The translations under genes were made by a program, and so were the position numbers. The notes below the pieces were generated by a model, which saw only the letters and a program-made list of their open reading frames with translations, was not told where the DNA came from and made no database searches. 64,000 nucleotides of DNA, taken from NCBI RefSeq assembly GCF_900100255.1, contig NZ_FMTS01000001.1, forward strand, positions 1,054,001 through 1,118,000, written 5' to 3'. This DNA is from Asticcacaulis taihuensis. GTDB lineage: Bacteria > Pseudomonadota > Alphaproteobacteria > Caulobacterales > Caulobacteraceae. Shown piece by piece: positions 44,824 through 64,000 of this stretch; the first letter of the stretch is position 1; each line of letters opens with the position of its first letter.

Positions 44824-44924
44824 CAGACTTCATTCCAAATGAGAATGACATATTGCCGAAATGGCAATGGATAAGCCCCATATTAGCGCGTATAAACCAG
44901 TTGTCCATACAGATATGGAATGAC

Positions 44925-46220: not shown

Positions 46221-46230
46221 GGAACCGAAC

Positions 46231-47766: not shown

Positions 47767-48928
47767 TTTTCAATGGGATGATCCGCTTTTGCTCGTCGAA
47801 CAACTGAGTGACGACGAACGCATGATCATGGAAGCCGCGCGCGACTATGCGCAAGGCTCGCTGATGCCGCGTGTGCTTAAGGCCTATGGCGAGGAACATA
47901 CCGACCGCGCCATCTTCAACGAGATGGGCGAACTCGGCCTGCTGGGCGCCACCTTGCCGGAACAATATGGCGGCGCCGGCGCGTCCTACGTCGCCTATGG
48001 CCTGATCGCCCGCGAGGTCGAGCGCGTCGATAGCGGCTACCGCTCGATGATGAGCGTTCAGTCGTCGCTGGTCATGTATCCGATCTATGCCTATGGCTCG
48101 GAAGACCAGCGGATGAAGTATTTGCCAAAGCTGGCTTCCGGTGAATGGGTTGGCTGCTTTGGCCTGACCGAGCCTGATGCCGGCTCCGATCCCGGCTCGA
48201 TGACCACCCGCGCCGAGAAAATAGATGGCGGCTACCGCCTCACTGGCACCAAGATGTGGATTTCCAACTCGCCCATCGCCGATGTCTTTGTGGTGTGGGC
48301 CAAGCTCGATGGCGTCATCCGCGGCTTCGTGCTGGAAAAGGGCATGAAGGGCTTAAGCGCGCCGAAAATCCACGGCAAGCTGTCGCTTCGCGCCTCGATC
48401 ACCGGCGAGATTGTCATGGATGGCGTCGAGGTCGGTGAAGACGCGCTCCTGCCGAATGCATCGGGCCTCAAGGGACCGTTCGGCTGCCTGAACCGCGCCC
48501 GTTACGGCATCGCCTGGGGCGCCATGGGCGCCGCCGAGGATTGCTGGCACCGCGCCCGCCAATATGGCCTCGATCGCAAGCAGTTCGGCAAGCCGCTGGC
48601 CCAGATGCAGCTCTTCCAGAAGAAGCTGGCCGATATGCAGACCGAGATTACGCTTGGTCTGCAAGCCGCTTTGCGCGTCGGGCAATTGTTCGACGCCGGC
48701 AAAATGCAGCCGGAAATGATCTCTCTGATCAAGCGCAATAACTGCGGAAAGGCCCTCGACATCGCCCGTCAGGCGCGTGATATGCATGGTGGCAACGGCA
48801 TCCACGAGGAGTTCCATGTCATGCGCCATGCGCAGAACCTGGAAACCGTCAACACCTACGAAGGCACGCACGACGTCCACGCCCTGATCCTTGGTCGGGC
48901 GCAAACGGGATTGCCGGCGTTCTTTTGA
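47759..48928 (+). CDS. gcdH: Glutaryl-CoA dehydrogenase
   Basis: A 389-residue acyl-CoA dehydrogenase. Its start [20 protein letters not shown] is typical of GcdH. FAD and substrate segments are [40 protein letters not shown], and [17 protein letters not shown] near 367, whose Glu is the catalytic base. GcdH also decarboxylates, forming crotonyl-CoA from glutaryl-CoA in lysine and tryptophan catabolism. It overlaps the upstream ALDH gene. A pair of family A repeats separates it from the CoA-transferase gene. Confidence 0.94.
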
Positions 48929-48930
48929 TG

Positions 48931-49001
48931 AAAAGCGAGATACCCCACCACCACGCCTCAAGAGAGGCGCGGTCCCCCTCCCCGGCAAAGCCGGGGAGGT
49001 A
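48931..49001 (-). repeat. Dispersed intergenic repeat, family A, copy 3
   Basis: On the minus strand it begins ATACCTCCCCGGCTTTGCCG and ends GTGGTGGTGGGGTATCTCGC. It starts 2 bp after the gcdH stop and is head-to-head with copy 4, with 10 bp between, so the two could form one large cruciform. Confidence 0.82.
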
Positions 49002-49011
49002 TGATTTTCTT

Positions 49012-49087
49012 ATACCTCCCCAACTCGTTGGGGAGGGGGACCGCACGAACGCGAAGCGTGAGATGTGGTGGTGGGGTTTCTTGCTTT
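49012..49087 (+). repeat. Dispersed intergenic repeat, family A, copy 4
   Basis: Begins ATACCTCCCCAACTCGTTGG and ends GTGGTGGGGTTTCTTGCTTT, as copy 2 does. It ends 19 nt before the start codon of the CoA-transferase gene. Confidence 0.85.
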
Positions 49088-49106
49088 CTTCCGTGTGTCT
49101 TGCCGC

Positions 49107-50270
49107 ATGAAGCCGCACACCAAACCCCTCGCCGGCCTGAGAGTCCTCGAACTCGCCCGCATCCTGGCCGGTCCGTGGTGCGGACAGTTGCTGGCCGATC
49201 TGGGCGCCGAGGTCATCAAGATCGAGCGCCCGGAGGTTGGTGACGATACCCGCACCTGGGGGCCGCCGTTCGTGACCGATGCCGCCGGCAATGCCTGGGG
49301 CGCGGCCTATTTCCATGCCACCAATCGCGGTAAGTCCTCGGTTGCCATTGCTTTCGAGATGCCCGAAGGCCAGGCCGTCATCCGCCAACTGGCCGCGGAA
49401 GCTGATATCCTGATCGAAAACTTCAAGGTCGGCGGCCTGAAGAAATACGGCCTTGATTACGAATCGCTGAAGCAGATTAATCAACGATTGATTTACGCTT
49501 CGATCACCGGCTTCGGTCAGGATGGCCCCTACGCCGCCCGCGCCGGCTACGACTACATTATCCAGGGCATGAGCGGCCTGATGGACATCACCGGCGAGCC
49601 CGAACGTGAACCGCAGAAGGTCGGTGTCGCCGTGGTCGATATCTTCACCGGCGTCTATACCTCGACCGCTATCCTGGCCGCCGTGCGTGGCCGTGAGATC
49701 AGCGGTGAAGGCTGCCATATCGACATGTCGCTGTTCGATACCGCCACCGCGATCCTCGCCAACCAGGCCAGCAACTATCTCGTCTCTGGCAAGTCGCCCT
49801 CGCGCCTCGGCAATGCCCATCCCAATATTGCGCCTTATCAGGTGTTCAGGGTGGCGGACGGCCATATCATCGTCGCGGTCGGCAATGACGGCCAGTTCCA
49901 GAAATTCTGCGCCGCGCTTGGCGCCACCGATATCGCCGCCAATACGGACTATGCCACCAATGCGCAGCGCGTCGGCGTGCGTCTCGCTTTGCAGGCCGAG
50001 CTTGAGCCCTTTCTGGTGCAAAAGACCCGCAGCCAATGGCTTGAAGCGCTGGAAACCGCCGGTGTGCCCGCCGGACCGATCAACCGCATCGAAGACGTCT
50101 TCAACGATCCGCAGATCATCCATCGCGGCCTGAAACTCGACCTGACCGCCGCCGATGGCTCCAAGGTCTCAGGCGTCGCCTCGCCCATCGTCATCAATGG
50201 CGAACGTATGTCCGCCGCCTCTCCCTCCCCTATGCTCGGCAGCGGGCAAGCCCAATGGACCTCCAAATGA
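49107..50270 (+). CDS. Class III CoA-transferase (probable succinyl-CoA:glutarate CoA-transferase)
   Basis: A 387-residue CaiB/BaiF family protein. GLRVLELARILAGPWCGQLL is at the N-terminus, GAEVIKIERPEVGDDTRTWG follows, and the catalytic Asp lies in QGMSGLMDITGEPE near 157. Adjacency to gcdH points to glutarate activation, the role of human SUGCT (C7orf10). The start at 49107 (MKPHTKPLAGLRV) avoids reading through the repeat. It overlaps the thiamine-diphosphate enzyme gene by 4 bp (ATGA). Confidence 0.87.
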   Translation: MKPHTKPLAGLRVLELARILAGPWCGQLLADLGAEVIKIERPEVGDDTRTWGPPFVTDAAGNAWGAAYFHATNRGKSSVAIAFEMPEGQAVIRQLAAEADILIENFKVGGLKKYGLDYESLKQINQRLIYASITGFGQDGPYAARAGYDYIIQGMSGLMDITGEPEREPQKVGVAVVDIFTGVYTSTAILAAVRGREISGEGCHIDMSLFDTATAILANQASNYLVSGKSPSRLGNAHPNIAPYQVFRVADGHIIVAVGNDGQFQKFCAALGATDIAANTDYATNAQRVGVRLALQAELEPFLVQKTRSQWLEALETAGVPAGPINRIEDVFNDPQIIHRGLKLDLTAADGSKVSGVASPIVINGERMSAASPSPMLGSGQAQWTSK

Positions 50271-51922
50271 CCCACCGTAACGGCGGCCAGATACTTGTTG
50301 ATCAACTATTGATTCAAGGCGTCGATCGCGTCACCTGCGTGCCCGGCGAAAGCTATCTGGCGGCGCTCGACGCCATGCATGATGCCGATATCGACGTTCT
50401 GATCTGCCGTCATGAAGGCGGCGCGGCGATCATGGCCGAGGCCTATGGCAAGCTGACCGCCCGCCCCGGCGTCTGCTTCGTCACGCGCGGCCCCGGCGCC
50501 ACCAACGCGGCCCACGGCGTCCATATCGCTCAGCACGACTCGACGCCGATGATCCTGTTCATCGGCCAGGTCGAGCGCGCCATGCTTGGTCGCGGCGCCT
50601 TCCAGGAAATGGACTATCAGCAGGTCTTCGGCAGCGTGGCCAAATGGGTGGTCGAGATCACTGACGCAAAGCGCATTCCCGAAATTGTTGCCCGTGCTTT
50701 CCGCATCGCCATGCAGGGCCGCCCCGGTCCCGTGGTCATCTCCCTGCCGGAAGACGTGCTGACCGACATGGAAGACGTGGCCGACGCACCGGCGCTCGCT
50801 TTTGCCAGGCCGGAACTGTCGATCGATGTCTTCCAGCAATTCGATGCCTTGCTTGCCGCCGCCAAGCGGCCACTGATTATCCTGGGCGGCAGCAACTGGA
50901 GTTATGAAGGCTGCGAAGCCATTGCCGATTTCGCCACGCGCTTTCGCATTCCGGTCGCTACCGAATTCCGCCGTTCGGCGCTTTTTCCCGCCGATCACCC
51001 CTCCTATGCCGGCGATCTTGGTTTCGGCCAGAACCCCAAGCTCAGCCAGCGCGTAAAAGACGCAGACCTGCTGATCCTGCTGGGGGCGCGCATGGCCGAG
51101 GTGCCCTCCTCCAGCTATACCCTGATCGATATCCCGACACCCAAGCAGACCATGGTTCACATCTTCCCGGACGCTGGCGAAATCGGCAAGGTCTACCAGC
51201 CGACGTTGGGCATCGTCTGCGCGGCGGATGCCTTCGCGCAATCCCTGGGCTATCTCAAGACGCCCGAGCGCGTTGTCTGGGGCGAAGAGACCGAAAACGC
51301 CCATATGGATTTCCTGATGTGGACCACCACGCCGGCGAAGATCCCCGGCGACTTCCAGTACGGCGAGGTCATGGTATGGTTGCGGGAAAACCTGCCCGCC
51401 GACACTATCACCTGCAACGGCGCCGGCAACTACGCCATCTGGCTGCACCGCTACTGGCGCCATACCCAACCGCGCACCCAGATCGCCCCCACCTCCGGCA
51501 GCGTCGGTTACAGCGTACCGGCTGGCGTCATGGCCAAGCGCCAGTGTCCGGACAGGACGGTCGTCGTCTTCGCCGGCGACGGCTGTTTCCTGATGCACGG
51601 CAATGAATTCGCCACGGCCGTGCAATACGATATTCCGGTCATCGTCCTGATCATCGACAACGGCATGTACGGCACCATCCGCATGCACCAGGAAAAAAAC
51701 TACCCGCACCGCGTCGTCGGCACCGACCTGAAGAACCCGGACTTCGCCGCTTACGCCAAAGCCTTCGGCGGCCATGGCGAGACTGTCCGCACCACGGCGG
51801 AATTCGTCCCGGCCTTTAAGCGGGCCCAAGCCTCAGGCAAGCCGGCGATCATCCACTGCTTCATCGATCCCCAGGCCATCACGCCAGCCAAAACGCTCGA
51901 TCAGGTCGCTCGCGGCGAATAG
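50267..51922 (+). CDS. Thiamine-diphosphate-dependent enzyme (acetolactate synthase-like)
   Basis: A 551-residue protein with the three-domain ThDP-decarboxylase fold. The catalytic Glu is in CRHEGGAAIMAEAYGKLTAR near residue 48, RGPGATNAAHGVHIA follows, and the ThDP motif GDGCFLMHGNEFATAV..DNGMYGT (GDG-x25-N type) is near 435-465. It is coupled to the CoA-transferase by ATGA, so it belongs to the lysine/glutarate pathway and is unlikely to make acetolactate. The best inference is decarboxylation of 2-oxoadipate, supplying a five-carbon semialdehyde that would be oxidised to glutarate. A terminator follows. Confidence 0.82.
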   Translation: MTHRNGGQILVDQLLIQGVDRVTCVPGESYLAALDAMHDADIDVLICRHEGGAAIMAEAYGKLTARPGVCFVTRGPGATNAAHGVHIAQHDSTPMILFIGQVERAMLGRGAFQEMDYQQVFGSVAKWVVEITDAKRIPEIVARAFRIAMQGRPGPVVISLPEDVLTDMEDVADAPALAFARPELSIDVFQQFDALLAAAKRPLIILGGSNWSYEGCEAIADFATRFRIPVATEFRRSALFPADHPSYAGDLGFGQNPKLSQRVKDADLLILLGARMAEVPSSSYTLIDIPTPKQTMVHIFPDAGEIGKVYQPTLGIVCAADAFAQSLGYLKTPERVVWGEETENAHMDFLMWTTTPAKIPGDFQYGEVMVWLRENLPADTITCNGAGNYAIWLHRYWRHTQPRTQIAPTSGSVGYSVPAGVMAKRQCPDRTVVVFAGDGCFLMHGNEFATAVQYDIPVIVLIIDNGMYGTIRMHQEKNYPHRVVGTDLKNPDFAAYAKAFGGHGETVRTTAEFVPAFKRAQASGKPAIIHCFIDPQAITPAKTLDQVARGE

Positions 51923-51940
51923 GTTTCAAACCAAACAGAA

Positions 51941-51976
51941 AAAATGGCGGCTGGATATTCCAGCCGCCATTTTTAT
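51941..51976. terminator. Bidirectional terminator
   Basis: A perfect 15-bp stem (AAAATGGCGGCTGGA with its complement) and a 3-nt loop, flanked by A and T runs, sit between the convergent ThDP-enzyme gene and giant repeat gene. Confidence 0.93.
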
Positions 51977-51996
51977 TTGCATCTGCTCAGTCGAAC

Positions 51997-54900
51997 CTAC
52001 AGGTATCCCTGTTGCTCGTCGGTCAGGGCTTCGAGTTGCTCGGCCGAGAAAGCCGCCAACTGAATAGCCGTGATCCCGCCGATCTGTGTCGTGCTGAGTG
52101 TCGGTATCTGATCTGTGGTCAGGCCGGCAATGGCCGATGTCGTCAGGGCCCCGATCTGCGAGGTCGAGAACAGCGTCAACTGCGTCGTCGTCAGGGCCGA
52201 CAACTGGGTAGAGGTCAGGCCGGTCAGGGCCGTCGTCGTCAGCGATGACAGTTGTGTCTCGTCCGCGGCGCCTAGCTGCACAGTGCTCATCGACTTGAGT
52301 TCCGCCGCCGTCAGGACACCGATCTGGGTGGTTGTCAGCGCCCCCACAACAATGGTTGACAGAGAGCCGAAGACCGTCGTGTTCAGGCCCGCCAGTTGCG
52401 TGGTCGACAGGCCGTTGACCTGGGTCGTGGTCAGGCTGTTGGACTGGGTCTCATTCAGCCCGGCGATCACCGCATTGCTCAGCGAACCGAACTGGGTGCC
52501 GTCGAGGCCCGCAATCTGGTCAGTCGTCAGGCCAGCCAGTTGCGATGACTTCAGGCCGGACAGTTGCGTCGTGGTCAGGCTGCTGACCTGGGTCGTCGTC
52601 AGACCATTCAGCGCCGTATCCGTCAGGACACCGATCTGAGTCTGTGTGAGGCCCCCGACCTGGGTCGTCGTCAGATTGCCGATAATGGTTTCCGTTAGGC
52701 CCGCCAGAGTGCGCGTCGAGATGGCGCCCAGTTGAGTGGCCCCCAGACCAGCCAGTTGCGTCGTATCAAGCGCCACCAAGTCGGACGAGGTGATACCCGC
52801 CACCTGGGCCGTGGTCAGGCCGCCCAGTTGCGTCGTATTCAGGCCGGCAAAGGCCGTCGAGGTCAGGGCAGCGACCTGGATGGCGCCAAGGCCCGCCAGT
52901 TGCGTGGTATCGAGCGCGCCCAGCTTGGTTTCATCGAGCACGCCGATGCTGGCCGTGGTCAGGGCCGCCAGTTGCGTGGATAGCAAGGTGGCGAACTGGG
53001 TCGAGGTCAGGTTGCCGACCTGGGTCGAGCTGATGCCGGAAATCTGGGCCGTGGTCAGGGCGGCAACATCCGTCGTTTCCAGGCCGCCGAGGGCGGTGGA
53101 CGTCAGAGCGTTCAGTTGCGCTGCCTTGAGGGCGGGCACCTGGCCGGCTGTCAGGCTGGCGACCTGGGTTTCATCGAGCGCGGCCACCGCCCCAGTGGTC
53201 AGGGCGCCAAGAACCGTATTGGCCAGGCCGCTGATCTGGGTGGTGGTCAGGGCTTCCGCCAGGGTGGCGTTGAGCCCGCCCACCGCCGCCACCGTCAGCT
53301 TGTTGAGCTGATCGGTTGAGAGAGCGGCGACCTGATCAGTGGTCAGGTTGGTGACCTGCGATGCGGTCAGGCCGATCGCCTGGGTCGAAGTCAGGCCGGT
53401 CAGGGCCGTCGTCGTCAGGGCCGTCACCGCCGACGTGGTCAGAGCCCCGATGCGGGTCACCGCCGGGCCGGAAAGCTCGGTGCTGCTGATCGCCGCCGCC
53501 TGGTCCGCCGTCAGCGACTTGAGCGCGAGGGTGGTCAGCGAATTGAGCTGCGTGGAGGACAGCGCACCGACCTGGGTGGAACTGAGCGCCGACACTTGGC
53601 TGGAGGTCACGCCGGTCAATTGCGCCGCCGTCAGGAGGGCCAGGTTGGTGGTCGAGAACTGAGCCAGATTATCGGCGCCCAGCGCGCCGACCTGAACGGC
53701 GCTGAGCTTGCCGATCTGGGTCGTGGTCAGGGCATCGATCTCGGTCGTGGTGAAGCCGCTGACCGCCGTGGCCGAGAGGCCGGCGATCTTGGTTTCCGAC
53801 AGGCCGGAGACCTGCGTCGTGGTCAGGTTGGCCACCTGGCTGGAGGTGATGCCGATGAAGGCCGGCGTGCCGATGCTGTTAAGCTGGTCCGTACCGAGCG
53901 CGGTGATAGCTTCGGTCGTTATCCCCTTGACCTGCGAAGAGGTCAGGCCGGCCAGTGCCGTCGAACTGAGCGCGGCGAACTGGGTCGAGGTCAGGTTCGA
54001 CAGTTCGGTCGTCGTCAGCTTGCCGACCTGGGCCGAGGTGATACCCGCCAGTTGGGTGGTTGAAAGCGCGGCGATATCATCGGCCGAGAAGGTGGAAATT
54101 GTCGCCGGTGCCAGGGCGCCCAGTTGGTCCGAGGTCAGCGTCCCCACCTGGGTGGAGGTCAGGCGCTCGACGGAGGTGGCGTTCAGCCCGGCCAGTTGCG
54201 TGGTGGTCAGGGCGCCGACATCCGTCGTGGTCAGTTCGACGAAGGCCGTGCCGCTGATGGCGTTGAGCTGGCTCGTCTTGAGCAGCCCTACCTGGGTAGA
54301 GGTCAGGGCGTCAACCTGCGTCGAATCCAGGGCGCCGAGCACGGTAGCGTTCAGCGCCTGCAGGCGTGTGGTGTCGAGACCGGCCAGTTGCGTCGTCGTC
54401 AGGCCGGCAGCCTGGGTCGATTTCAGCGCGCCGAAGGTAGCTGCCGTCAGGCTGTTGAGCTGGTCCGTGGTCAGGGCGCCCAACTGGTCGGTCGAGAACG
54501 AACCCAGTTGCGCCGCCGTCAGGCCCGGAAGCTGGGTTGTTTCCAGGTTGGCGATATTGGTCGTGTCGAGATTGGCGATCTGGCCGGTCGAAAGCCCGGC
54601 GATCTGCGAGGTCGTCAGGCCGTCGAGTTCTGTGGACGTCAGGCCGCCGATCGCGGTTGCCGACAGGGCATTCAATTGCGCCGTTTTCAGCGCCTGAACC
54701 TGCGAGGTATTGAGCGTGGCGATCTGGGTTTCATCAAGCGCCGCGATGGAGGCGGTCGAGAGGGCCGCGAGGATGGTGGTGGCCAGCCCGCCGACCTGGG
54801 TGGTGGTCAGGGCCGCCGTCAGGGTGGCATTCAGGCCAGCCACCGCCGCCGTCGTCAGCTTGTTGAGTTGGTCGGTGGAAAGCGAGGCGATCTGATCGGT

Positions 54901-57900
54901 CGACAGGCTGGCGACTTGGCTCGATGTCAGACCCAGCGCCTGGGTCGAACTCAGGCCGGTCAGGGCCGTCGTCGTCAGGGCTGTCACCGCAAGCGTGCTG
55001 AGTGCGCCAATGCGGGTGACGGCCAGACCGGAGAGTTCAGTGGAACTGATCGCCGATGCCTGATCAGCCGTTAGAGTCTTGAGCGCCGCCGTGGTGAGGG
55101 CGTTCAACTGGGTTGAGGCCAGAGCACCAACCTGGGTGGAGGTGAGACTCGGCAGTTGGGTAGAGGTCACGCCCGCCAGTTGGGCGACGCTGAGCGAGGT
55201 CAGGCTGGTCGTGGAAAGGCTTCCCAGGTCGAACGCCGAAATCGCGCCGATTTGGGAGGCCGTGAAAGCCTGCACCTGTGTCGTCGATAGCGCATTCAAC
55301 TGGTCGGAGGTGAGCGAGCCGACAGCATCCGTATTCAGGCGCGAAATTTTGGCTGCATCGAGCCCGGCCAGCACGCCGGTGCTGTTGGTCTCCAGGAAGA
55401 ATATCTGGCTGCCGTTAATCCCGGCGACGGCATTCGCGGACAGCGCGTTCAACTGAGTGGAATTCTGCTCGCCAAAAGCGATGGCGCCGAGCGCGTTGAC
55501 CTGAGCCGAACTCAGGCCGCCCAGAGCGGTTGTGGACAGCGCAGCATATTGTGTCTCATCCAGTGTGAAGAGCGCCGTGGTCGAGAGCTTCGAGACCTGC
55601 GTCGAGGTCAGGCCGCTAAGCTGGCTGGTGATGGTGAAAAGGTCCAGAGACGGTATCGCCGCCGGCGCGATGGCGGAAAATTGCGTCGAATCCCACGCCG
55701 CCAGATTGAGGAACGACAGGCTGCCGATCTGGGTGGCGTTAAGCCCGCCGATCTGGGTCGTTGTCAGGCTGCCAAGGTCGCTCGTATCCAGGGCACTGAA
55801 GGTGTCGATAGCATTGAGCTGCGTCGTCTTGAGCTGCGCCATCTGAGTCGAGGTCAGCGAGTCCACCTGCCCGAAATCGAGTGAATGCACCACAGCAACG
55901 CTCAGCGCCTGCAGATGCGTGGAATCGAGACCGGAAAGCTGCGTGGTCGTCAGCCCCGTGACCTGGGTGGTCTTGAGGGCGCCCAAGGCGGTCGCGGTCA
56001 GGCTGTTGAGCTGATCCGTCGTCAGGGCACCGAGCTGATCAGTCGTGAACGATCCCAGTTGCGCCGCCGTCAGTCCCTTCAATTGGGTGGTTTCGAGATT
56101 GGCGATATTGGTGGTGTCGAAATTGGCCAGTTGCGCCACCGAGAGGCCGGCCACCTGGGTGGTTGTCAGGCCGTCCAGTTCCGTCGTGGTCAGGCCGCCC
56201 AGGGTCGTCGCCGTCAGGGCGTTCAGTTGCGCGGTCTTGAGGGACTGAATCTGCGAAGTATTCAGCGTGGCGATCTGTGTCTCATCGAGCGCCGCGACAG
56301 AAGCGGTAGACAAGGCTGACAGGACAGTTGTCGCCAGGCCACCGACCTGCGTGGTGGTCAGCGAAGCCGTCAACGTGGCGTTCAGGCCGGCCACCGCCGC
56401 CGTCGTCAGCTTGTTGAGTTGGTCAGTGGAAAGCGAAGCCGCCTGCGTGGTCGACAGGCTGCCCACCTGGCTTGATGTCAGGCCCAGCGCCTGGGTCGCC
56501 GTCAGGCCGGTCAGGGTCGTCGTGGTCAGGGCTGCAACCGCCGCCGTGCCGATCGCGCCTATGCGGGTCACCGCAAGCCCCGACAGGCCGGTTGAGGTGA
56601 TCGCGGCGGCCTGGTCGGCCGTCAAACCTTTGAGGGCGGCCGTGGTCAGGGCGTTAAGCTGGGTGGAACTCAGGGCGCCGGCCTGGGTCGAGGTCAGGGC
56701 GCCCAGTTGCGCCGAACTGACGCCGCCCAGTTGTGCCACGCTGAGGACGCCGAGCGAAGTCGTGTCGAGCACCGCGAAATTGGTGGCGCCGAGTGCCGCG
56801 ATCTGCGCCGATGACAGCTTGCCGATCTGGGTATCCGAGAGCGTATCGACGGAGGTCGTGGTCAGGCCGCCGATGGCTGTCGCGCTGAAAGCCGCCAGCT
56901 TGGTTTCGCTCAGGCCGCTGATCTGGGTCGTCGTCAGGCTGCCGGATTGGTCGGCCGTAATGCCGCCGATCGCCACATTGGTCAGGGCGTTCAACTGATC
57001 GGTGCCGAGCGCGGCCACTGTATCCGTGGCGATGCCCTTCAGTTGCAGGGCCGTCAGCCCGGCCAGCGCAGTAGAGGTGATTGCGGCGAATTGTGTCGAG
57101 GTCAGGTTCGACAACTGGCCGGTCGTCAGCTTTGTCACCTGGGCGGCCGTGACGCCCGCCAGTTGCGTGGTCGAAAGGGCGCCGATATCGTCGGTCGAGA
57201 AGGTTGCCAGCGCCGCCGGCGAGATAGCGCCAAGCTGTGTGGACGTCAGAGAACCGACCTGGGTAGAGGTCAGGCGTTCGACCTGGGTGGCATTGAGCCC
57301 CGAAAGCTGCCCTGTGGTCAGGGCGCCGACATCGGTGGTCGACAGGTCGGTAATGGCGGCGGCGCTCAAGGCATTGAGCTGCGTCGTCTTGAGGTTGGCA
57401 ACCTGGGTTTCGGTCAGCGAATCGACCTGGGTGGCGTCAAGCGCACCCAGAAGGGTGACATTCAGGGCCTGGAGGTGCGTGGTATCGAGCGCCGAAAGCT
57501 GGGTCGTCGTCAGGCCGGACGCCTGGGTCGATTTCAGGGCGCCGATCGCGGCGGCCGTCAGCCCGTTGACTTGGTCCGTGGTCAGGGCGCCGATCTGATC
57601 CGTCGACAGCGAACCGAACTGCACAGCCGTCAGAGCCCCTGCCTGAGTGGTGGTCAGGGCTGCCACATTGGTGGTCGTCAGGCCGGTCAGGCCCGCCGTG
57701 GTGATGGCCGCCAATTGCGTGTTGGCAAGACCCGACGCCTGGGTAGTGGTCAGGGCACCGATAGAGGTCGCGTTCAGGCCCGCGATCTGGTTGACGGCTA
57801 GGCCGGCCAGCAAGGTGGTATCCAGCGCAGCGATCGCCGTGGTCTCAAGGCTGTTCAGATTGGTGGCCGTGACCGACTTGAGCTGGGTGGCGCTCAATTC

Positions 57901-58560
57901 CCCCAGCAGGGTGGTGGCGATGTCGCCGAACTGGGTCGTGCTGATCGAGGCGATGGCGGCCGTGCTGAAGCCCTGGACCTGGGTGGTCGTCAGGGCCAGC
58001 ACGGAGGTCGAGGTCAGAGCGCCAATCGCCGACGCCGTGAAGGCACCAAGTTGCGCCGTGGTCAGGCCGCCCAGTTGCGTGGTCGTCAGCGAAGCGACCT
58101 CGTCCGTCGTCAGGCCGCGAATCTGGGCGGTCGAAAACTTGCCGACCTGGGTGGAGGTCAGGGCCGCAAACTGATCGGTTGTCAGGTGGCTGATTTCGGA
58201 GGCGGTCAGGCCGGAAAGCTGGGTCGTGTCCAGCGCCGCGATGGCGGTCGTCGAGAAGGCTTCGAGCTGGGCGGTCAGCAGGACCGAAAGCTGGGAACTG
58301 GTAAAGGCGACCTGCCCCGTCGCCAGGAAGGTAATCTGGTCAGTGGTAAGCGCCTTGACCTGATTGCCGGTCAGCGCCTTGAGCTGCGTGGTACTGAGCG
58401 CACCGATCTGGGTGGTCGAAAGGACCGCAACGCCCGAAGTCGACAGCGCGCTGATCTGCGTCGTCTTTAATTCCTGGAGCTGATCCGTCGTCAGGTTCTG
58501 AACAAAGGATACGCTAAGCTTGGAGATTTGTGCTGCGGACAGCCCAGAGATGGATGACAC
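51997..58560 (-). CDS. Giant Thr-rich octapeptide-repeat protein (2187 aa)
   Basis: Almost the whole protein is an octad repeat of the form L-[ST]-T-x-Q-[ILV]-x-[AGS], for example LSTTQIGALSTTQLKA near residue 47, so about 270 octads. Thr, Leu, Ala, Ser, Gly and Gln dominate. I see no Cys and only one Trp, and charge is mostly acidic (TDQ units). A higher-order unit of 65 octads recurs with anchors at 57469, 55909 and 54358 (spacings 1560 and 1551 bp). The middle copy is the most degenerate. There is no Sec signal, lipobox, RTX motif or LPXTG-like tail; the ends are MSSISGLSAAQISKLS and LEALTDEQQGYL. The start is GTG behind AAGGGG. It is probably a filamentous or solenoid structural or surface protein. 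I do not recognise a named family. It lies 126 bp downstream of the UDP-glucuronate decarboxylase gene. Confidence 0.85.
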   Translation of the reverse strand: MSSISGLSAAQISKLSVSFVQNLTTDQLQELKTTQISALSTSGVAVLSTTQIGALSTTQLKALTGNQVKALTTDQITFLATGQVAFTSSQLSVLLTAQLEAFSTTAIAALDTTQLSGLTASEISHLTTDQFAALTSTQVGKFSTAQIRGLTTDEVASLTTTQLGGLTTAQLGAFTASAIGALTSTSVLALTTTQVQGFSTAAIASISTTQFGDIATTLLGELSATQLKSVTATNLNSLETTAIAALDTTLLAGLAVNQIAGLNATSIGALTTTQASGLANTQLAAITTAGLTGLTTTNVAALTTTQAGALTAVQFGSLSTDQIGALTTDQVNGLTAAAIGALKSTQASGLTTTQLSALDTTHLQALNVTLLGALDATQVDSLTETQVANLKTTQLNALSAAAITDLSTTDVGALTTGQLSGLNATQVERLTSTQVGSLTSTQLGAISPAALATFSTDDIGALSTTQLAGVTAAQVTKLTTGQLSNLTSTQFAAITSTALAGLTALQLKGIATDTVAALGTDQLNALTNVAIGGITADQSGSLTTTQISGLSETKLAAFSATAIGGLTTTSVDTLSDTQIGKLSSAQIAALGATNFAVLDTTSLGVLSVAQLGGVSSAQLGALTSTQAGALSSTQLNALTTAALKGLTADQAAAITSTGLSGLAVTRIGAIGTAAVAALTTTTLTGLTATQALGLTSSQVGSLSTTQAASLSTDQLNKLTTAAVAGLNATLTASLTTTQVGGLATTVLSALSTASVAALDETQIATLNTSQIQSLKTAQLNALTATTLGGLTTTELDGLTTTQVAGLSVAQLANFDTTNIANLETTQLKGLTAAQLGSFTTDQLGALTTDQLNSLTATALGALKTTQVTGLTTTQLSGLDSTHLQALSVAVVHSLDFGQVDSLTSTQMAQLKTTQLNAIDTFSALDTSDLGSLTTTQIGGLNATQIGSLSFLNLAAWDSTQFSAIAPAAIPSLDLFTITSQLSGLTSTQVSKLSTTALFTLDETQYAALSTTALGGLSSAQVNALGAIAFGEQNSTQLNALSANAVAGINGSQIFFLETNSTGVLAGLDAAKISRLNTDAVGSLTSDQLNALSTTQVQAFTASQIGAISAFDLGSLSTTSLTSLSVAQLAGVTSTQLPSLTSTQVGALASTQLNALTTAALKTLTADQASAISSTELSGLAVTRIGALSTLAVTALTTTALTGLSSTQALGLTSSQVASLSTDQIASLSTDQLNKLTTAAVAGLNATLTAALTTTQVGGLATTILAALSTASIAALDETQIATLNTSQVQALKTAQLNALSATAIGGLTSTELDGLTTSQIAGLSTGQIANLDTTNIANLETTQLPGLTAAQLGSFSTDQLGALTTDQLNSLTAATFGALKSTQAAGLTTTQLAGLDTTRLQALNATVLGALDSTQVDALTSTQVGLLKTSQLNAISGTAFVELTTTDVGALTTTQLAGLNATSVERLTSTQVGTLTSDQLGALAPATISTFSADDIAALSTTQLAGITSAQVGKLTTTELSNLTSTQFAALSSTALAGLTSSQVKGITTEAITALGTDQLNSIGTPAFIGITSSQVANLTTTQVSGLSETKIAGLSATAVSGFTTTEIDALTTTQIGKLSAVQVGALGADNLAQFSTTNLALLTAAQLTGVTSSQVSALSSTQVGALSSTQLNSLTTLALKSLTADQAAAISSTELSGPAVTRIGALTTSAVTALTTTALTGLTSTQAIGLTASQVTNLTTDQVAALSTDQLNKLTVAAVGGLNATLAEALTTTQISGLANTVLGALTTGAVAALDETQVASLTAGQVPALKAAQLNALTSTALGGLETTDVAALTTAQISGISSTQVGNLTSTQFATLLSTQLAALTTASIGVLDETKLGALDTTQLAGLGAIQVAALTSTAFAGLNTTQLGGLTTAQVAGITSSDLVALDTTQLAGLGATQLGAISTRTLAGLTETIIGNLTTTQVGGLTQTQIGVLTDTALNGLTTTQVSSLTTTQLSGLKSSQLAGLTTDQIAGLDGTQFGSLSNAVIAGLNETQSNSLTTTQVNGLSTTQLAGLNTTVFGSLSTIVVGALTTTQIGVLTAAELKSMSTVQLGAADETQLSSLTTTALTGLTSTQLSALTTTQLTLFSTSQIGALTTSAIAGLTTDQIPTLSTTQIGGITAIQLAAFSAEQLEALTDEQQGYL

Positions 58561-58686
58561 GACTTTTTCGCCCCTTGATCCCGCCAGAAATACGACTCAC
58601 TTATTAATTGGTACGGTAAACTTTCGATTAATTTTTACAAGTGGACACGAAATACAACCCTTGCGGTATAGGGGTGACGCCCTTCC

Positions 58687-59625
58687 CTACAGGGCCAGAA
58701 CCTCACGGAAATAGTTAATAGTCCGCGCCAGCCCGTCTTCTAGCGGAACGGACGGCTGCCAGCCGAGCACGGATCTGGCCAGGGAAATATCCGGCTGGCG
58801 CTGGCGGGGATCATCCGCCGGCAGCGGCCGGTTGACCAGTTCGCTCCCTGCACCGGTGAGCAAAATGACTTTTTCGGCCAGTTCGCGCATGGTGAATTCC
58901 ACCGGATTACCGATATTGACCGGCCCGGTCACGTCATCGGGGCTGTCCATCAGGCGGATCATGCCGTCGATCAGATCGTCGACATAGCAGAAGCTGCGCG
59001 TCTGTTCGCCGGAACCATAGAGCGTGATGGGCTCGCCACGCAGGGCCTGGACGATGAAGTTGGAGACCACCCGGCCGTCATTGGGGTGCATCCGCGGGCC
59101 GTAGGTATTGAAGATGCGCATGACCTTTATCTTCAGTTTGTGCTGGCGATGATAGTCAAAGAACAGGGTTTCGGCGCAGCGTTTGCCCTCGTCGTAGCAG
59201 GCGCGCGGCCCCTGTACATTGACACGCCCCCAGTAGCCCTCCGTCTGGGGATGGACTTCCGGATCGCCGTAGATTTCACTGGTCGATGCCTGGAGGATCT
59301 TCGCCTTGGTGCGCTTGGCCAGGCCCAGCATGTTGATGGCGCCGATGACGCTGGTCTTGGTCGTCTGGACAGGATCGAACTGGTAATGCACTGGCGAGGC
59401 CGGACAGGCCAGGTTGTAGATTTCATCGACCTCGACATAGAGCGGGAAGGTAATGTCGTGGCGCAGCACTTCGAAATAGGGATTGCTCATCAGGTGCGCG
59501 ATATTGCGCCGCTGGCCGGTGAAGAAGTTATCGGCGCATACCACATCGTCGCCGCGTTCAAGCAGCCGCTCGCACAGGTGCGACCCCAAAAATCCCGCGC
59601 CGCCGGTAACCAGTATCTTCTTCAC
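58687..59625 (-). CDS. UDP-glucuronate decarboxylase (UDP-xylose synthase)
   Basis: A 312-residue SDR enzyme. NAD motif [20 protein letters not shown] is at the N-terminus. The UXS signature segments are [40 protein letters not shown] and [20 protein letters not shown], with the catalytic Tyr-x-x-x-Lys. It forms UDP-xylose from UDP-glucuronate. GTG start (59625) behind AAGGGG. It is probably in one transcript with the giant repeat gene and divergent from the GT41-type gene, which would make it a source of donor sugar. Confidence 0.93.
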
Positions 59626-59682
59626 AATATCCCCTTCAATTCAAATGCACTCGTCCCCGCGAGGTGCCACGAGTCGCCGCCT

Positions 59683-59710
59683 TTGACAAAAGGTTAACGC
59701 CGACTACTCT
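59683..59710 (+). promoter_or_regulatory. Candidate promoter of the GT41-type gene
   Basis: TTGACA (59683-59688), 16 bp, TACTCT (59705-59710), 33 bp ahead of the start codon. Confidence 0.45.
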
Positions 59711-59742
59711 GTGACGTGTAACGAATCAGGGAATACGCATCC

Positions 59743-61749
59743 ATGCCCGACACCGCACATATCGCGCCCGCCGCCCCCGGCATGAGCGTTATGGAACTCA
59801 TCCAGTCGGCGGAAGCCCTGAAGGCCGGCGGCCATGCCGCGGCCGCTGTGGCGCTCTACGAGACATTCGTGGCTCAGAACCCGGACCACCCCCTGCTCTA
59901 CGCGCTGCTTTTCAACCTGGGCGTCATCCTGACCGATCATCGCGACCTTAACCGGGCGCGTGAGGTCATGGAGCGCGCCCTGGAGGTCAATCCTGATTTC
60001 CACAGCGTCTATATCAATCTGGGCCGCATCTATGAGGGGCTGGGCGATAACGCGAAGGCCGTTCTGACCTGGAACGGCCTGGCCGGCCGGCTCGGCCAGA
60101 TCACCGGCTCGGCCCTCAAGCACAAGACCATGGCGCTCAATCAGGCTGCCCGCGTGCTGGAAGGCGCCCACCAGGACGAGCCGGCCGAAACCGCCCTGCG
60201 CATCAGCCTGGAGATCGATCCGCATCAGCGCGAGGCCATGCAGCACTTCATCGCCCTGCGTCAGCGCCAGTGCGCCTGGCCGATCGTCATTCCGTTCGAG
60301 AACATGACACGCGAGCACCTGCTGACCGGCATTTCGCCGCTGTCGATCGACGCCTACACCGACGACCCCATCTTCCAGTTGGCCCTGAGCTATCACTATA
60401 ATCTCAAGGATGTCGGCGTACCGGTGGGTGATATCATCACCAATCATTGGTCAGCGAAAAACAACCAGAAAGACAAACCGATCCGTATCGGCTACCTGTC
60501 GTCCGACCTGCGCGAACACGCCATCGGCCACCTGATGTATGAGGTATTGGGCCTGCACGACCGCTCCAAGGTCGAGGTCTTCGCCTATTATTGCGGCATC
60601 CCCTCCAATGATCCGATCCACAACCACTACAAGGAAACCTCGGATCACTTCATCGATATCACCAGCATGGACGATGTCACCGCCGCCCGCCGCATCGCCG
60701 ATGACGGCATCCAGATCCTGATCGACGTCAACGGCTATACCCGCGACGGCCGCACCAAGTTGCTGGCCCTGCGCCCGGCGCCGGTGATCGTCAACTGGCT
60801 GGGCTTCCCCGGTTCACTCGGCAGCCCTTACCACCACTATATCATCGCCGATGACTGGATCATTCCCGAAGGCGACGAAATATACTATTCCGAAGCCGTC
60901 ACCCGCCTGCCCTGTTACCAGCCGAACAACCGCCTGCGCATCGTCGCCCAAGAAGTGCCGACCCGCGCCGAGGTCGGCCTGCCGGAAGATGCCTTCGTAT
61001 TTTGCTGTTTTAACGGCACGCACAAGATCACACGCTTCACCTTCGACCGCTGGCTGGAAATCCTCAGCCGCGTGCCTAATTCAGTGCTGTGGCTGCTCTC
61101 CGGCGCCGAAGCCTCGCACGGCCGCCTGAAAGCCTATGCCGAAAGCAAGGGCATCGATCCGGCCCGCATTGTCTTCGCCGACAAGAAGGCCAACCCTCAT
61201 CACCTGGCGCGTTATCAACTGGCGGACCTGTTCCTCGACACCACGCCCTATGGCGCCCACACCACCTGCTCGGATGCCCTGTGGATGGGCGTGCCGGTGC
61301 TGACGCTTTCGGGCCGTACCTTTGCCTCGCGCGTCTGCGGCTCACTGGTCAGAGCTGCCGGCCTGCCCGACGAACTCATCTGCACAACGGCCCAGGACTA
61401 TATCGACCGTGCCGTGGCGATCGGCCGTGGGAAGGGAGATATAAAGGCTTGGCGCGAACATCTGCTGGCCAATCGCCTGACCAGCACCCTGTTCGACACC
61501 TCTAAACTGGTGACGCATCTGGAAGGGCTCTATGCCGATATGTGGCAGGCGTGCCTGGATGACAGACTGCCCCAGCCCGATCTGGCCAATCTCGATACCT
61601 ATTTCGAGATGGGTCTGCTGCACGACCATGAGGCTGTCGAGGTCCAGACCATTGCCGATTATAAGGGCTTCTGGCGGGAAAAGCTGGCGAAGCGCCACGC
61701 CTACCGCCCTGTGCCCTTCGACAACCGTCTATGGAAGAAGCCGGAATAG
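59743..61749 (+). CDS. O-GlcNAc-transferase-type glycosyltransferase (GT41, SPINDLY-like) with TPRs
   Basis: A 668-residue protein. TPR-like helices (about residues 15-165, for example LFNLGVILTDHRDLNRAREV and YINLGRIYEGLGDNAKAV) precede a GT41 catalytic region. RIGYLSSDLREHAIGHLM near 246 contains the conserved His, followed by DVNGYTRDGR, NWLGFPGSLGSPYHHYIIAD, FCCFNGTHKITRFTFDRWLE near 425, and FLDTTPYGAHTTCSDALWMG near 500. This matches the human OGT and SPINDLY active-site layout. It is a cytoplasmic enzyme that attaches sugars to Ser/Thr. The divergent UDP-sugar enzyme gene and the Thr-rich repeat protein are its likely partners; flagellin is an alternative target. AGGGAA precedes the ATG. 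Confidence 0.92.
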   Translation: MPDTAHIAPAAPGMSVMELIQSAEALKAGGHAAAAVALYETFVAQNPDHPLLYALLFNLGVILTDHRDLNRAREVMERALEVNPDFHSVYINLGRIYEGLGDNAKAVLTWNGLAGRLGQITGSALKHKTMALNQAARVLEGAHQDEPAETALRISLEIDPHQREAMQHFIALRQRQCAWPIVIPFENMTREHLLTGISPLSIDAYTDDPIFQLALSYHYNLKDVGVPVGDIITNHWSAKNNQKDKPIRIGYLSSDLREHAIGHLMYEVLGLHDRSKVEVFAYYCGIPSNDPIHNHYKETSDHFIDITSMDDVTAARRIADDGIQILIDVNGYTRDGRTKLLALRPAPVIVNWLGFPGSLGSPYHHYIIADDWIIPEGDEIYYSEAVTRLPCYQPNNRLRIVAQEVPTRAEVGLPEDAFVFCCFNGTHKITRFTFDRWLEILSRVPNSVLWLLSGAEASHGRLKAYAESKGIDPARIVFADKKANPHHLARYQLADLFLDTTPYGAHTTCSDALWMGVPVLTLSGRTFASRVCGSLVRAAGLPDELICTTAQDYIDRAVAIGRGKGDIKAWREHLLANRLTSTLFDTSKLVTHLEGLYADMWQACLDDRLPQPDLANLDTYFEMGLLHDHEAVEVQTIADYKGFWREKLAKRHAYRPVPFDNRLWKKPE

Positions 61750-61752
61750 AGG

Positions 61753-61785
61753 AAACAAAAAAGCCTCCCGAAAGGGAGGCTGTTT
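61753..61785. terminator. Terminator after the GT41 gene (copy of the tRNA-Arg terminator)
   Basis: GCCTCCC (61763-61769), loop GAAA, GGGAGGC (61774-61780), inside an AAACA/TGTTT outer pair. The stronger T run (TTTTTT) is on the minus strand. It is a near copy of the element at 61921. Confidence 0.85.
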
Positions 61786-61788
61786 GTG

Positions 61789-61810
61789 GAATGGCGCACT
61801 CGGAGCGATT
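61789..61810. repeat. Truncated copy of the tRNA-Arg 3' end (att-like)
   Basis: 22 bp identical to 61957-61978, comprising the last 19 nt of tRNA-Arg including CCA and 3 bp beyond it. With the preceding terminator copy, it makes a direct duplication with 168-bp spacing. The rest of the tRNA is absent here. Confidence 0.8.
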
Positions 61811-61920
61811 GATGCGCGTTGTTTTAACAACGCTTACCCCTTCGGGGCGCCTGCGGCGTCGGCCGCCCTTTCGGGCCGGCCACGAACTCCGTCGTTCGAA
61901 CCACTTGAAGCAATATTCAA

Positions 61921-61955
61921 ACAAAAAAGCCTCCCCGAAGGGAGGCTCTTTTGTT
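61921..61955 (-). terminator. Terminator of tRNA-Arg
   Basis: GCCTCCC (61929-61935), loop, GGGAGGC (61940-61946). On the minus strand a TTTTTT run follows, 14 nt after the tRNA 3' end. Confidence 0.88.
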
Positions 61956-61959
61956 TGAA

Positions 61960-62036
61960 TGGCGCACTCGGAGCGATTCGAACGCCCGACCCTCAGATTC
62001 GTAGTCTGATGCTCTATCCAGCTGAGCTACGAGTGC
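61960..62036 (-). tRNA. tRNA-Arg (anticodon ACG)
   Basis: 77 nt with CCA encoded. The acceptor GCACTCG pairs with CGAGTGC. The D arm is GCTC/GAGC, the anticodon stem TCAGA/TCTGA with loop CTACGAA (anticodon ACG, reading CGN after A34 deamination), and the T arm GGGCG TTCGAAT CGCTC. All arms fold. Confidence 0.97.
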
Positions 62037-62235
62037 CTGCGCATTCATGTCTGTCCGGGCGATGCCTGACAGCGAGGGCGGACATTTAGTTGAACGGTTT
62101 CGATAAGGCAAGGCCGGATCGATACTTTTTCCACCGAATTGATGATTTTTTGTTGATCGCCCTCCCCGGCAGGCGTCACAGTCCTATATAGAGCCAGCCA
62201 AGCCGCCTACCTGTGCCGCCTAAAGGAAAACCGTC

Positions 62236-63993
62236 ATGCGTTACCCGTCCCTGAAATCGCTCGTCATTGTGGCAACAGGGCTGGTCCTGACGGGGTGCGC
62301 CACTTCCCCCGCGCCTGAACCCCCGCGCATCGTGCCCATTGTGGTCGCCGCCGAACCGGAAGCAGCCCAGGCGGGAATGGATGTGCTCAGGCGTGGCGGT
62401 ACGGCCGCCGATGCCGCCGTGGCGGTCCAGACGGTGCTGGGTCTGGTCGAGCCGCAAAGCTCCGGCCTGGGTGGCGGCGCTTTCATGCTGTGGTATGACG
62501 CCAAAACCGGAAAGATCAGCGATTATAACGGCCGCGAAACCGCGCCGGCCGCCGCCTCACCCGATATGTTCCTGGGCGCCGATGGCCAGCCGCTGGCGTT
62601 TAAAGATGCGGTTGTTTCCGGCCGCGCCACCGGCGTGCCCGGCGCCATGTTCCTGCTCGACCAGGCGCAAAAGGATCACGGCAATCAGGAGTGGGCCAGC
62701 CTGTTCGTCCCGGCCACTGCCCTGGCTGATAATGGCTTCACCGTGACAAAACGCCTTGGCAACTATCTGCAAAACGCCGATTTCGCCGAAAAGCACACGC
62801 CGGATTTCATCGCCTATCTCGGTGACGGCCAGGGCGGCTACCGCAAGACCGGCGACATGATCAAAAACCCGGCCTATGCCGAGACCCTGCGCGCCTTCGC
62901 CAGCCATCGCAGCGAGGTCTTCCGCAAGGGGCCGATCGCCGAGGCCATCGTCGCCAAGACCCACGAAGTCCCCTTGCCCGGCGGCATGAACCTGAACGAT
63001 CTGGCCGCTTATAGGGTCAAGGTCACCACCACCGCACCTTATGCCACCGCCGGCGGATATGCCGGCCGGCCGGTCTGCATCACCTATCACGTCTATATTG
63101 TCTGCTCGAACAATGCCCCTTCCGGCGGCATCGCCCTGTTGCAGGGGCTGAAGATCGCCGAATCCCAGCCGCTGGCCCAATGGGGTGTGCATGATCCGCG
63201 CTCGTGGCAGGTCGTCATCGAGGCCGAGCGCCTGATGTATGCCGACCGCGACCAGTACGAAGCCGATACGGCTCTCTTCACTTCCCAGCAGGACGCCTAT
63301 CTCAATCCGGATTATCTCAAGGCCCGCTCGTCGCTGATCAATATTGGCACGGTCAATGCCGCACCCAAGGCGGGTGACCTGGCAATGAAGGTCGCCATGG
63401 ACCGCACACTTGAACCCGGCGGCACCACCCATTTCGTCATCCGCGACACCTACGGCAATGTGCTGAGCATGACCACCACGGTCGAGAGCTTCTTCGGCAC
63501 CGGCCGGATGGTCGGCGGTTTCTTCCTCAATAACCAGTTGACCGATTTCTCGTTCAGCCCACAGACGATGGACGGCCTGCCGGTGGCCAACAGCGTGGCG
63601 CCGGGCAAGCACCCGCGGTCCTCCATGGCGCCGGTGATCGTTTTTGATTCAACGGGCAAAAAAGTCATCGCGGCGGTAGGTTCGCCCGGCGGCTCGGCTA
63701 TCCTGGCCTATAATCTGAAAACCCTGATCGGCATTCTCGACTGGAATCTCTCCATGCAGGACGCCATCAACCTCCCGATCGTGGTGGCGCGCGGCGATAC
63801 TATCCGCATCGAACAAACGCGCATGGAGCCAGCGGTCTGGAATGGCCTGACTGGTATAGGCTACAGGCTGTCACCCCTCGCCGGCGAGGAATCCGGCCTG
63901 AACGGCATCCTGCGCCAGCCAGATGGCTCGTTCAACGGCGGCAGCGATCCGCGTCGCGAGGGCGTGGTGATCAGGGGCGATGCCAGGCCGTAA
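62236..63993 (+). CDS. ggt: Gamma-glutamyltransferase, lipoprotein
   Basis: A 585-residue Ntn-hydrolase. The N-terminal signal ends in the lipobox LTGCA (Cys at 21), so the protein is anchored in the periplasm. The large-subunit segment AGMDVLRRGGTAADAAVAVQ is followed by GLGGGAFMLWYD. The autocleavage site and nucleophile are at PGGTTHFVIRDTYGNVLSMT near 396, and GSPGGSAILAYNLK lies near 478. It transfers or hydrolyses gamma-glutamyl groups, for example from glutathione. AAGGA precedes the ATG. It ends 7 bp before the window edge. Confidence 0.95.
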   Translation: MRYPSLKSLVIVATGLVLTGCATSPAPEPPRIVPIVVAAEPEAAQAGMDVLRRGGTAADAAVAVQTVLGLVEPQSSGLGGGAFMLWYDAKTGKISDYNGRETAPAAASPDMFLGADGQPLAFKDAVVSGRATGVPGAMFLLDQAQKDHGNQEWASLFVPATALADNGFTVTKRLGNYLQNADFAEKHTPDFIAYLGDGQGGYRKTGDMIKNPAYAETLRAFASHRSEVFRKGPIAEAIVAKTHEVPLPGGMNLNDLAAYRVKVTTTAPYATAGGYAGRPVCITYHVYIVCSNNAPSGGIALLQGLKIAESQPLAQWGVHDPRSWQVVIEAERLMYADRDQYEADTALFTSQQDAYLNPDYLKARSSLINIGTVNAAPKAGDLAMKVAMDRTLEPGGTTHFVIRDTYGNVLSMTTTVESFFGTGRMVGGFFLNNQLTDFSFSPQTMDGLPVANSVAPGKHPRSSMAPVIVFDSTGKKVIAAVGSPGGSAILAYNLKTLIGILDWNLSMQDAINLPIVVARGDTIRIEQTRMEPAVWNGLTGIGYRLSPLAGEESGLNGILRQPDGSFNGGSDPRREGVVIRGDARP

Positions 63994-64000
63994 GCTTCAC

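Follow-up and report, generated by a model that had tools for sequence, protein, structure and literature searches.

A TPR-GT41 glycosyltransferase gene linked to a giant octad-repeat protein gene in Asticcacaulis taihuensis and its relatives: a predicted enzyme-substrate pair

Does a glycosyltransferase encoded next to a giant threonine-rich repeat protein modify that protein, and with which sugar? The question is raised by a three-gene locus in a stretch of 64,000 nucleotides from Asticcacaulis taihuensis (contig NZ_FMTS01000001.1, positions 1,054,001 to 1,118,000 of the forward strand), hereafter the window, in whose coordinates the genes are given. On the minus strand lies the gene for a 2187-amino acid octad-repeat protein of the ALTTAQ family (51997..58560; open reading frame (ORF), Pfam match and octad pattern), the proposed substrate, and 126 base pairs (bp) from it, on the same strand, the gene for a 312-amino acid uridine diphosphate (UDP)-xylose synthase (UXS), a UDP-glucuronate decarboxylase of the UXS1 type (58687..59625; ORF, Pfam and structure-profile match), the proposed source of the sugar donor. 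A further 117 bp away, the plus strand carries the gene for a 668-amino acid OGT-like glycosyltransferase of family GT41 with tetratricopeptide repeats (TPRs) (59743..61749; ORF, Pfam and alignment to OGT), the proposed transferase for the octad protein and the single GT41 gene of its genome. A first-pass annotation had described this layout, and ORF coordinates confirmed it with both gaps. In the reading that we favour, with moderate confidence, the octad protein is O-glycosylated by the GT41 enzyme while still in the cytoplasm, the donor probably being UDP-xylose or one of its derivatives, and is then exported to the cell surface or the flagellum.

Members of this GT41 clade almost never occur without an ALTTAQ gene, and the reverse association is looser. 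Among 61 genomes (that of A. taihuensis and 60 relatives), ten contained matches to the Pfam family ALTTAQ_rpt (PF20080) over its cut-off, and exactly the same ten encoded a near-full-length relative of the GT41 enzyme (at least 50% identity); the two genes lay within 5 kb of each other in all ten. An eleventh genome, G053, gave a single PF20080 match below the cut-off (E 2.9e-4). From 168 relatives of the GT41 query we further took the best 80 as GT41 loci, numbered with the prefix L; the figures obtained from them hold for the near clade, and their records are named Alphaproteobacteria, Desulfovibrio, Solidesulfovibrio, Verrucomicrobia, Opitutia, Myxococcales, Marinimicrobia and Magnetococcales. 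With a profile built from the repeats of the window protein, an ALTTAQ ORF was called in the flank of 76/80 loci, and in 72 of these 76 it lay directly upstream of the GT41 gene on the same strand, with a median gap of 62 bp that was at most 200 bp in 70/72 (measured from the first possible start codon). Given this prevailing order, the arrangement in the window, with UXS in between and GT41 diverging, is a local variant, common to L079 and, without UXS in between, to L078. Three of the four loci without ALTTAQ are short of upstream sequence (in L108 and L140 the sequence begins within the GT41 gene, and in L133 it extends about 100 bp beyond the gene); the fourth is L156. The first-pass annotation had expected all three genes to co-occur in relatives: the pairing of repeat gene and GT41 gene bore this out in the same 10/61 genomes and in 76/80 loci, but UXS, adjacent in 12/80 loci, is not a fixed neighbour.

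The pair is also kept when the partner changes. Two ALTTAQ types can be told apart in the genus by their N-terminus, the SSISGLSAAQ type of the window protein and a SIYSSYSVNQ kind. The GT41 gene lies beside the former in six genomes (G000, the A. taihuensis genome itself, and G015, G017, G019, G022 and G024) and beside the latter in three (G011, G012 and G018), staying with an ALTTAQ gene in 9/9 genus members that carry GT41, over several layouts. Such swapping of the partner with conservation of the pair is predicted by a substrate-enzyme relation. In genome G019 (L041, L042) the two ALTTAQ genes, like the GT41 gene beside one of them, are broken over several frames (two for GT41), by decay or by sequencing errors. 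In a sample of 289 genomes of the window's own class, PF20080 was found in six and the GT41 clade in four, all four among the six, and the clade stood clear of other GT41 proteins (at least 864.6 bits vs 461.5 for the next). Of these four carriers, G261 has GT41 adjoining ALTTAQ and G000 has UXS alone in between; in G234 and G329 the two genes are about 6 kb apart, separated by a second GT41 gene and transporter-like genes.

The octad protein itself matched PF20080 over 80 stretches with 776.8 bits against a curated cut-off of 26.4 (E 1.7e-240). About 259 octads, counted with a loose hydrophobic pattern, account for 95% of its 2187 residues, with the consensus L-T-[TSA]-T-Q-[LIV]-x-x and a hydrophobicity autocorrelation of 0.78 at lag 8. 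The Thr/Ser-rich octad repeat that the first-pass annotation had reported is thus real, and the E value and periodicity together rule out chance or artefact. Pfam side matches to CAAP1 and LRR_EndoS were taken as repeat-composition matches. The protein contains 20.0% Thr and 10.4% Ser, no Cys, and has an isoelectric point (pI) of 4.05. Across 18,071 octads from the relatives' ORFs of more than 1000 amino acids (n = 58), position 1 is Leu in 85%, position 2 Thr/Ser in 80%, position 4 Thr/Ser in 70%, position 5 Gln in 65% and position 6 Leu/Ile/Val in 84%. In most of 25 aligned ALTTAQ proteins the octads are interrupted near the N-terminus by a recurring stretch of consensus FSxxQLSVL, which speaks for shared ancestry and against convergence of the repeats. 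A full-text literature search by family name and PF20080 returned no paper containing the word ALTTAQ or dealing with the family by title.

An AlphaFold2 model of residues 1-360, built with 24 homologous N-termini, reached a mean predicted local distance difference test (pLDDT) score of 90.8; confidence can be overstated in models of repeats, and may be so here. The model shows a short-helix solenoid in which each octad contributes a single helix of some five residues and the Thr/Ser after the Leu sits just before the helix. Foldseek found no convincing fold match in the PDB, the best being mesothelin chains (E 3e-4, query template modelling (TM) score 0.21-0.26), and the top three matches among viral models had query TM scores of 0.11-0.16; we claim no known fold for the solenoid. 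The BFVD entry A0A6J7X2V1, a predicted phage protein, aligned to the octad model with 37% identity over 94 columns, and ALTTAQ-like repeats may occur in phages.

Where the octad protein acts is a point on which readings diverge. No signal peptide was seen by eye at the aligned ALTTAQ N-termini, as would be expected if the protein were a cytoplasmic scaffold or filament that the GT41 enzyme regulates in the manner of O-GlcNAc transferase (OGT), whose substrates are nucleocytoplasmic; OGT regulates nuclear and cytoplasmic proteins. Such a cytoplasmic role is improbable in view of the Cys content: the 58 long ALTTAQ proteins contain 37 Cys among 148,127 residues (40/58 are Cys-free) vs 1.46% in the GT41 proteins of the same loci, a depletion of about 58-fold, and in several lineages secretion or flagellar export genes lie nearby. 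The low Cys content fits export, though the repeat composition contributes to it. The median pI of the same 58 proteins is 4.15.

The 668-amino acid enzyme is predicted to be a protein-glycosylating transferase. Its GT41 domain matched PF13844 with 287.9 bits against a cut-off of 25 (E 1.5e-85) and is preceded by N-terminal TPRs, a helical region at residues 16-176 (59788..60270, plus strand) that was recognised by Pfam TPR matches and whose modelled helices mostly exceed a pLDDT of 75. As a whole the AlphaFold model was uninformative (mean pLDDT 59.9, nine sequences), and the motif assignment rests in its place on the sequence alignment to human OGT. All three motifs are on the plus strand. 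The His of SSDLREH (residues 253-259, 60499..60519) aligns with what we take to be the active-site His of the OGT N-lobe, and the Lys of FNGTHKI (residues 423-429, 61009..61029) with what we take to be the catalytic Lys of OGT; GAHTTCSD (residues 504-511, 61252..61275), found by pattern match, presumably functions as the UDP-binding loop of GT41. Narrow patterns for the His, Lys and HTTxxD motifs matched 77, 72 and 78 of 82 GT41 ORFs, respectively, and the window protein has all three. Among proteins of solved structure it is closest to human OGT and XcOGT (by profile, 358 bits for XcOGT and 247 bits for chain 5djs, which we take to be TtOGT), and its closest named matches are from Asticcacaulis (82-83% identity).

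Some loci hold further genes of this kind. Two tandem GT41 genes near transporter genes were seen in L145, L151, L157, L160 and L161, the second with 35-38% identity to the window enzyme; such a tandem pair would perhaps build a two-sugar glycan. Genes for FkbM-type methyltransferases, assigned by a Pfam check of one member of each cluster, lie near GT41 in one cluster of eight (L134, L142, L143, L146, L148, L149, L150 and L152) and one of four (L128, L131, L145 and L154); that of L146 is fused to TPRs. These methyltransferases may methylate the sugar. Locus L156, from a Magnetococcales bin, encodes a protein of 2509 amino acids in which TPR-like repeats accompany a GT41 domain (L156:3861-11390).

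Which sugar would be transferred? The 312-amino acid protein matched the NAD-dependent epimerase family PF01370 (E 1e-49) and carries the motif GGAGFLG and, at residue 144, YDEGK; UXS1 structures scored 421 bits and the next kind of molecule 142 bits. The name given by the first-pass annotation was therefore right, and UDP-xylose synthase activity is predicted. An adjacent UXS (more than 50% identity) was seen in only 12/80 loci, and UXS as a fixed neighbour was rejected as a general rule. Genome-wide, UXS was present (E at most 1e-100) in 48/50 pair-carrying genomes vs 98/289 class genomes, which supports a UXS-derived donor. The 50 genomes represent 50 of the 80 loci, selected in most cases because their contigs are long (the set excludes L155 and L156), and they span other phyla while the background is the window's own class alone; because genomes are related, all p values are rough. 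The enrichment survived matching for flagella and genome size, with 47/89 among FlhA-positive genomes of at least 2.8 Mb that lack the system (Fisher p 3e-8), and at a cut-off of 1e-60 UXS was found among the 61 genomes in 9/10 carriers vs 22/51 others (p 0.012). Presence without linkage is what would be expected of an enzyme whose donor sugar is used for other glycans as well, and in 4/4 carriers of the class sample UXS does lie within about 5 kb of GT41 or ALTTAQ.

We put UDP-xylose or a derivative at slightly below an even chance as the donor. A common nucleotide sugar, for instance UDP-GlcNAc or UDP-glucose, is a serious candidate, somewhat short of even, and compatible with the core claim; the co-occurrence of UXS would then reflect how often flagellated bacteria with large genomes make envelope polysaccharides that contain xylose. 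Human OGT and XcOGT, the nearest solved relatives, use UDP-GlcNAc as donor, and the rarity of UXS adjacency points the same way, as do the presence of UXS in 31/61 genomes, 22 of them without the pair, and its absence from three carriers: G033 (at 1e-60) and, at 1e-100, G384 (Roseibium) and G386 (a bin). This explanation is opposed by the control matched for flagella and genome size and by the proximity of UXS in the four class carriers.

A second genome-wide association concerns the flagellum. FlhA, detected with PF00771, which also covers FlhA relatives of injectisomes, was present in 49/50 pair-carrying genomes vs 165/289 class genomes, and in 47/69 UXS-positive, system-free genomes of at least 2.8 Mb. 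The one FlhA-negative carrier is a bin with two FlgE matches, and FlgE was found in 41/50 carriers at E 1e-6. In six lineages flagellar genes lie near the pair or near another ALTTAQ gene. Asticcacaulis relatives (L034, L035 and L040) have a flgE-like gene diverging from ALTTAQ, followed in L034 by an unknown gene and then flgD (flgE of L034 and L040 and flgD of L034 assigned by Pfam, flgE of L035 by clustering). In L118 and L155 flgE lies downstream of GT41, and in L093 about 3 kb from it. The genome of L106 has flgE, flgK, a flagellin-C gene, fliS, fliD and a flagellin gene upstream of ALTTAQ, the flagellin gene 1.5 kb away; that of L098 has flhA, flhB, fliR, fliM, fliI and fliF genes ending about 2.3 kb from GT41; and in G261 fliR, flhB and a sensor kinase gene stand in line with the third ALTTAQ gene, not the GT41-linked copy. 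Counted by eye, FlgE or FlhA lay within 25 kb of GT41 in 6/50 genomes vs 1.2 expected, an expectation that ignores contig breaks (P 0.0016); with the two Asticcacaulis counted once, five genomes remain (P 0.008).

The first-pass annotation had foreseen flagellin merely as a route to refutation, whereas the flagellar association makes it a live rival or partner. The GT41 enzyme could modify flagellin or hook protein, with the ALTTAQ protein as a flagellar accessory that merely shares the operon. The near-constant presence of FlhA and the hook, flagellin or export genes found near the locus in several lineages would agree with this, and FlmG, likewise a TPR protein with a glycosyltransferase domain, glycosylates flagellins according to the cited part of the source (PMC7591256). 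We nevertheless judge modification of flagellin or hook protein unlikely: 161/165 FlhA-positive class genomes lack the GT41 clade, all four clade carriers have ALTTAQ, the pair is operon-like in 72/80 loci, and a flagellin gene was seen nearby only in L106.

Other features of the flagellar neighbourhoods were noted in passing. A conserved gene of 313-314 amino acids without a Pfam match lies downstream of the flgE-like gene (L034:15842-16783 and L035:15688-16632) and is, by position only, a candidate for hook-length control. Several carriers (G354, G366 and G377 among them) have FlgE paralogues of clearly different length, with open frames of about 430 and 570-610 amino acids. The neighbour tallies, which covered 67/79 upstream and 103/136 downstream proteins with 25 families listed each, included one FlbT match.

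A different export route is suggested at other loci. Genes for an ABC transporter and an HlyD protein were both found by clustering in 7/80 loci (L130, L132, L139, L141, L145, L151 and L157), several of which have two tandem GT41 genes. The L151 copies matched the ABC transporter and HlyD families in Pfam, with a C39 peptidase match below the cut-off, and similar genes were recognised by likeness in G234 and G329; by eye, none was recognised among the window ORFs at 44000-64000. The family may thus comprise two branches that differ in their route of export. In one alternative, compatible with glycosylation by the GT41 enzyme, the octad protein is secreted by a type I system and serves as an adhesin or surface fibre, with a function unrelated to the flagellum. 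Type I substrates are typically acidic and Cys-poor, and the pI of about 4 and near-absence of Cys fit this alternative as well as the transporter genes do; both transporter genes occur in only 7/80 loci, however, and nearly all of the 50 pair-carrying genomes have FlhA. We regard this alternative as possible, though not the expected outcome.

Taken together, the ALTTAQ and GT41 genes would form a two-gene substrate-enzyme module. The TPR domain would recognise the octad protein in the cytoplasm, and the GT41 domain would add a monosaccharide to the Thr/Ser of the octads at positions 2-4 of L-T-x-T-Q-[LIV]-x-x. The leading candidate donor would be UDP-xylose supplied by the UXS of the same genome, or a nucleotide sugar derived from this UDP-xylose. 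Once glycosylated, the Cys-free, acidic helical solenoid would be exported to the cell surface, where it would probably belong to the flagellum or be attached to it; for one sub-group, type I secretion would be the likelier route. For the family as a whole, export by the flagellar apparatus and export by a type I system are each no better than tentative proposals. Dense glycosylation would keep a helical repeat of 2000-3300 residues soluble and protease-resistant. The most far-reaching version, in which GT41 and UDP-xylose coat hundreds of Thr/Ser on a 200-300 kDa solenoid of one short helix per octad that leaves by flagellar export and forms a sleeve or fibre of the flagellum, is doubtful. 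If true, such an O-xylosylated flagellar solenoid would be a new flagellar component with a new solenoid architecture, would reveal a new donor for GT41, and would occur in several phyla.

Several observations pull against glycosylation of the octad protein as we propose it. Extra ALTTAQ genes without GT41 occur elsewhere in the genome in 5/9 genus carriers (G000, G015, G017, G019 and G022), two of the six ALTTAQ-positive class genomes (G100 and G200) lack the GT41 clade, and the second ALTTAQ gene of G234 and the third of G261 have no GT41; the copies in these four class genomes argue against a strict one-to-one rule. Locus L156, with 3.9 kb of upstream sequence and no ALTTAQ, is the one true miss among the 80. 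UXS also feeds other glycans and, as described, is missed in three carriers, and the solenoid model may be over-confident. Flagellar genes were recognised beside only a minority of loci, and none among the partly scanned neighbours of the others, the window's included. Sigma-54-like motifs were not enriched upstream of ALTTAQ, either in strict form (1/48 vs 2/698 controls) or relaxed form (1/48 vs 7/698), and the relaxed pattern did not occur upstream of the genes in the window or in L033-L035 and L040; a sigma-54 flagellar promoter upstream of ALTTAQ is thus not supported by either pattern.

The genome of A. taihuensis holds a second ALTTAQ gene, an ORF of 2510 amino acids (G000:C8:54100-61632, corresponding to L033:6600-14132), with no GT41 alongside and convergent with a gene for a 1113-amino acid autotransporter. 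In the window, 46231-51922 carries genes resembling, by eye, those for an aldehyde dehydrogenase, an acyl-CoA dehydrogenase, a CoA-transferase and a thiamine-diphosphate enzyme. These metabolic neighbours are kept beside the window-type ALTTAQ gene in relatives, and the CoA-transferase and thiamine-diphosphate enzyme families turn up in the Pfam neighbour tally for the relatives' copies; they are probably unrelated to the locus. The CapD-type gene at 18022, which the first-pass annotation had offered as a distant contributor to the same chemistry, appears in the ORF list, and nothing ties it to the locus.

For a single GT41 clade with clear limits, represented in records named Alphaproteobacteria, Desulfovibrio, Verrucomicrobia, Myxococcales and Marinimicrobia, the locus offers a linked candidate substrate and also a candidate donor. 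The evidence points towards a widespread system and towards a giant glycoprotein of the surface or the flagellum, so far undescribed. A literature search by title and start of abstract, whose coverage leaves out most subscription journals and preprints, returned no paper on this system. The bacterial OGT homologues XcOGT and TtOGT resemble the window enzyme in combining TPRs with a GT41 domain that lacks the long insertion of human OGT. For TtOGT of Thermobaculum terrenum, the cited part of the source reports that it showed no activity towards test peptides and that a protein modified by it could not be found (PMC4683255); it thus differs from the present enzyme, which has a linked substrate candidate.

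FlmG of Caulobacter crescentus is comparable in being a cytoplasmic protein of TPRs and a glycosyltransferase domain, dedicated to an exported surface protein, with a flagellar link and in a related host group; its O-glycosylation of flagellin depends on pseudaminic acid, as the cited part of the source describes (PMC7591256). Here the partner is instead a giant octad solenoid, and the sugar gene UXS is co-inherited. The GT41 clade is set apart from FlmG by the description of FlmG and not by sequence. In serine-rich repeat adhesins the modifying enzymes are encoded in the adhesin's own locus, where SecA2/SecY2 accompany enzymes of the GtfA/GtfB type. These adhesins are likewise large Ser/Thr-rich repeat proteins that are O-glycosylated and leave by a dedicated route, accessory Sec export, as far as the cited part of the source goes (PMC6973325). 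They differ in being Gram-positive, in their enzymes, in their repeat and in accessory Sec export, for which no genes were among the 25 families listed per neighbour tally, a part of all families; no targeted search was made. HMW1C is a GT41-related enzyme paired with one large secreted adhesin, HMW1, in the cited part of the source (PMC3012730), as the GT41 enzyme is here with one large, putatively exported protein, but it N-links sugar to Asn sequons, its adhesin leaves by two-partner secretion, and HMW1C-like structures share weak similarity with the window enzyme (28 bits). Common to FlmG, the serine-rich repeat adhesins, HMW1C and, as proposed, this locus is a dedicated enzyme with one large surface protein; within the descriptions cited, this locus is distinguished by its repeat, its enzyme clade, its co-inherited sugar gene and its spread over phyla.

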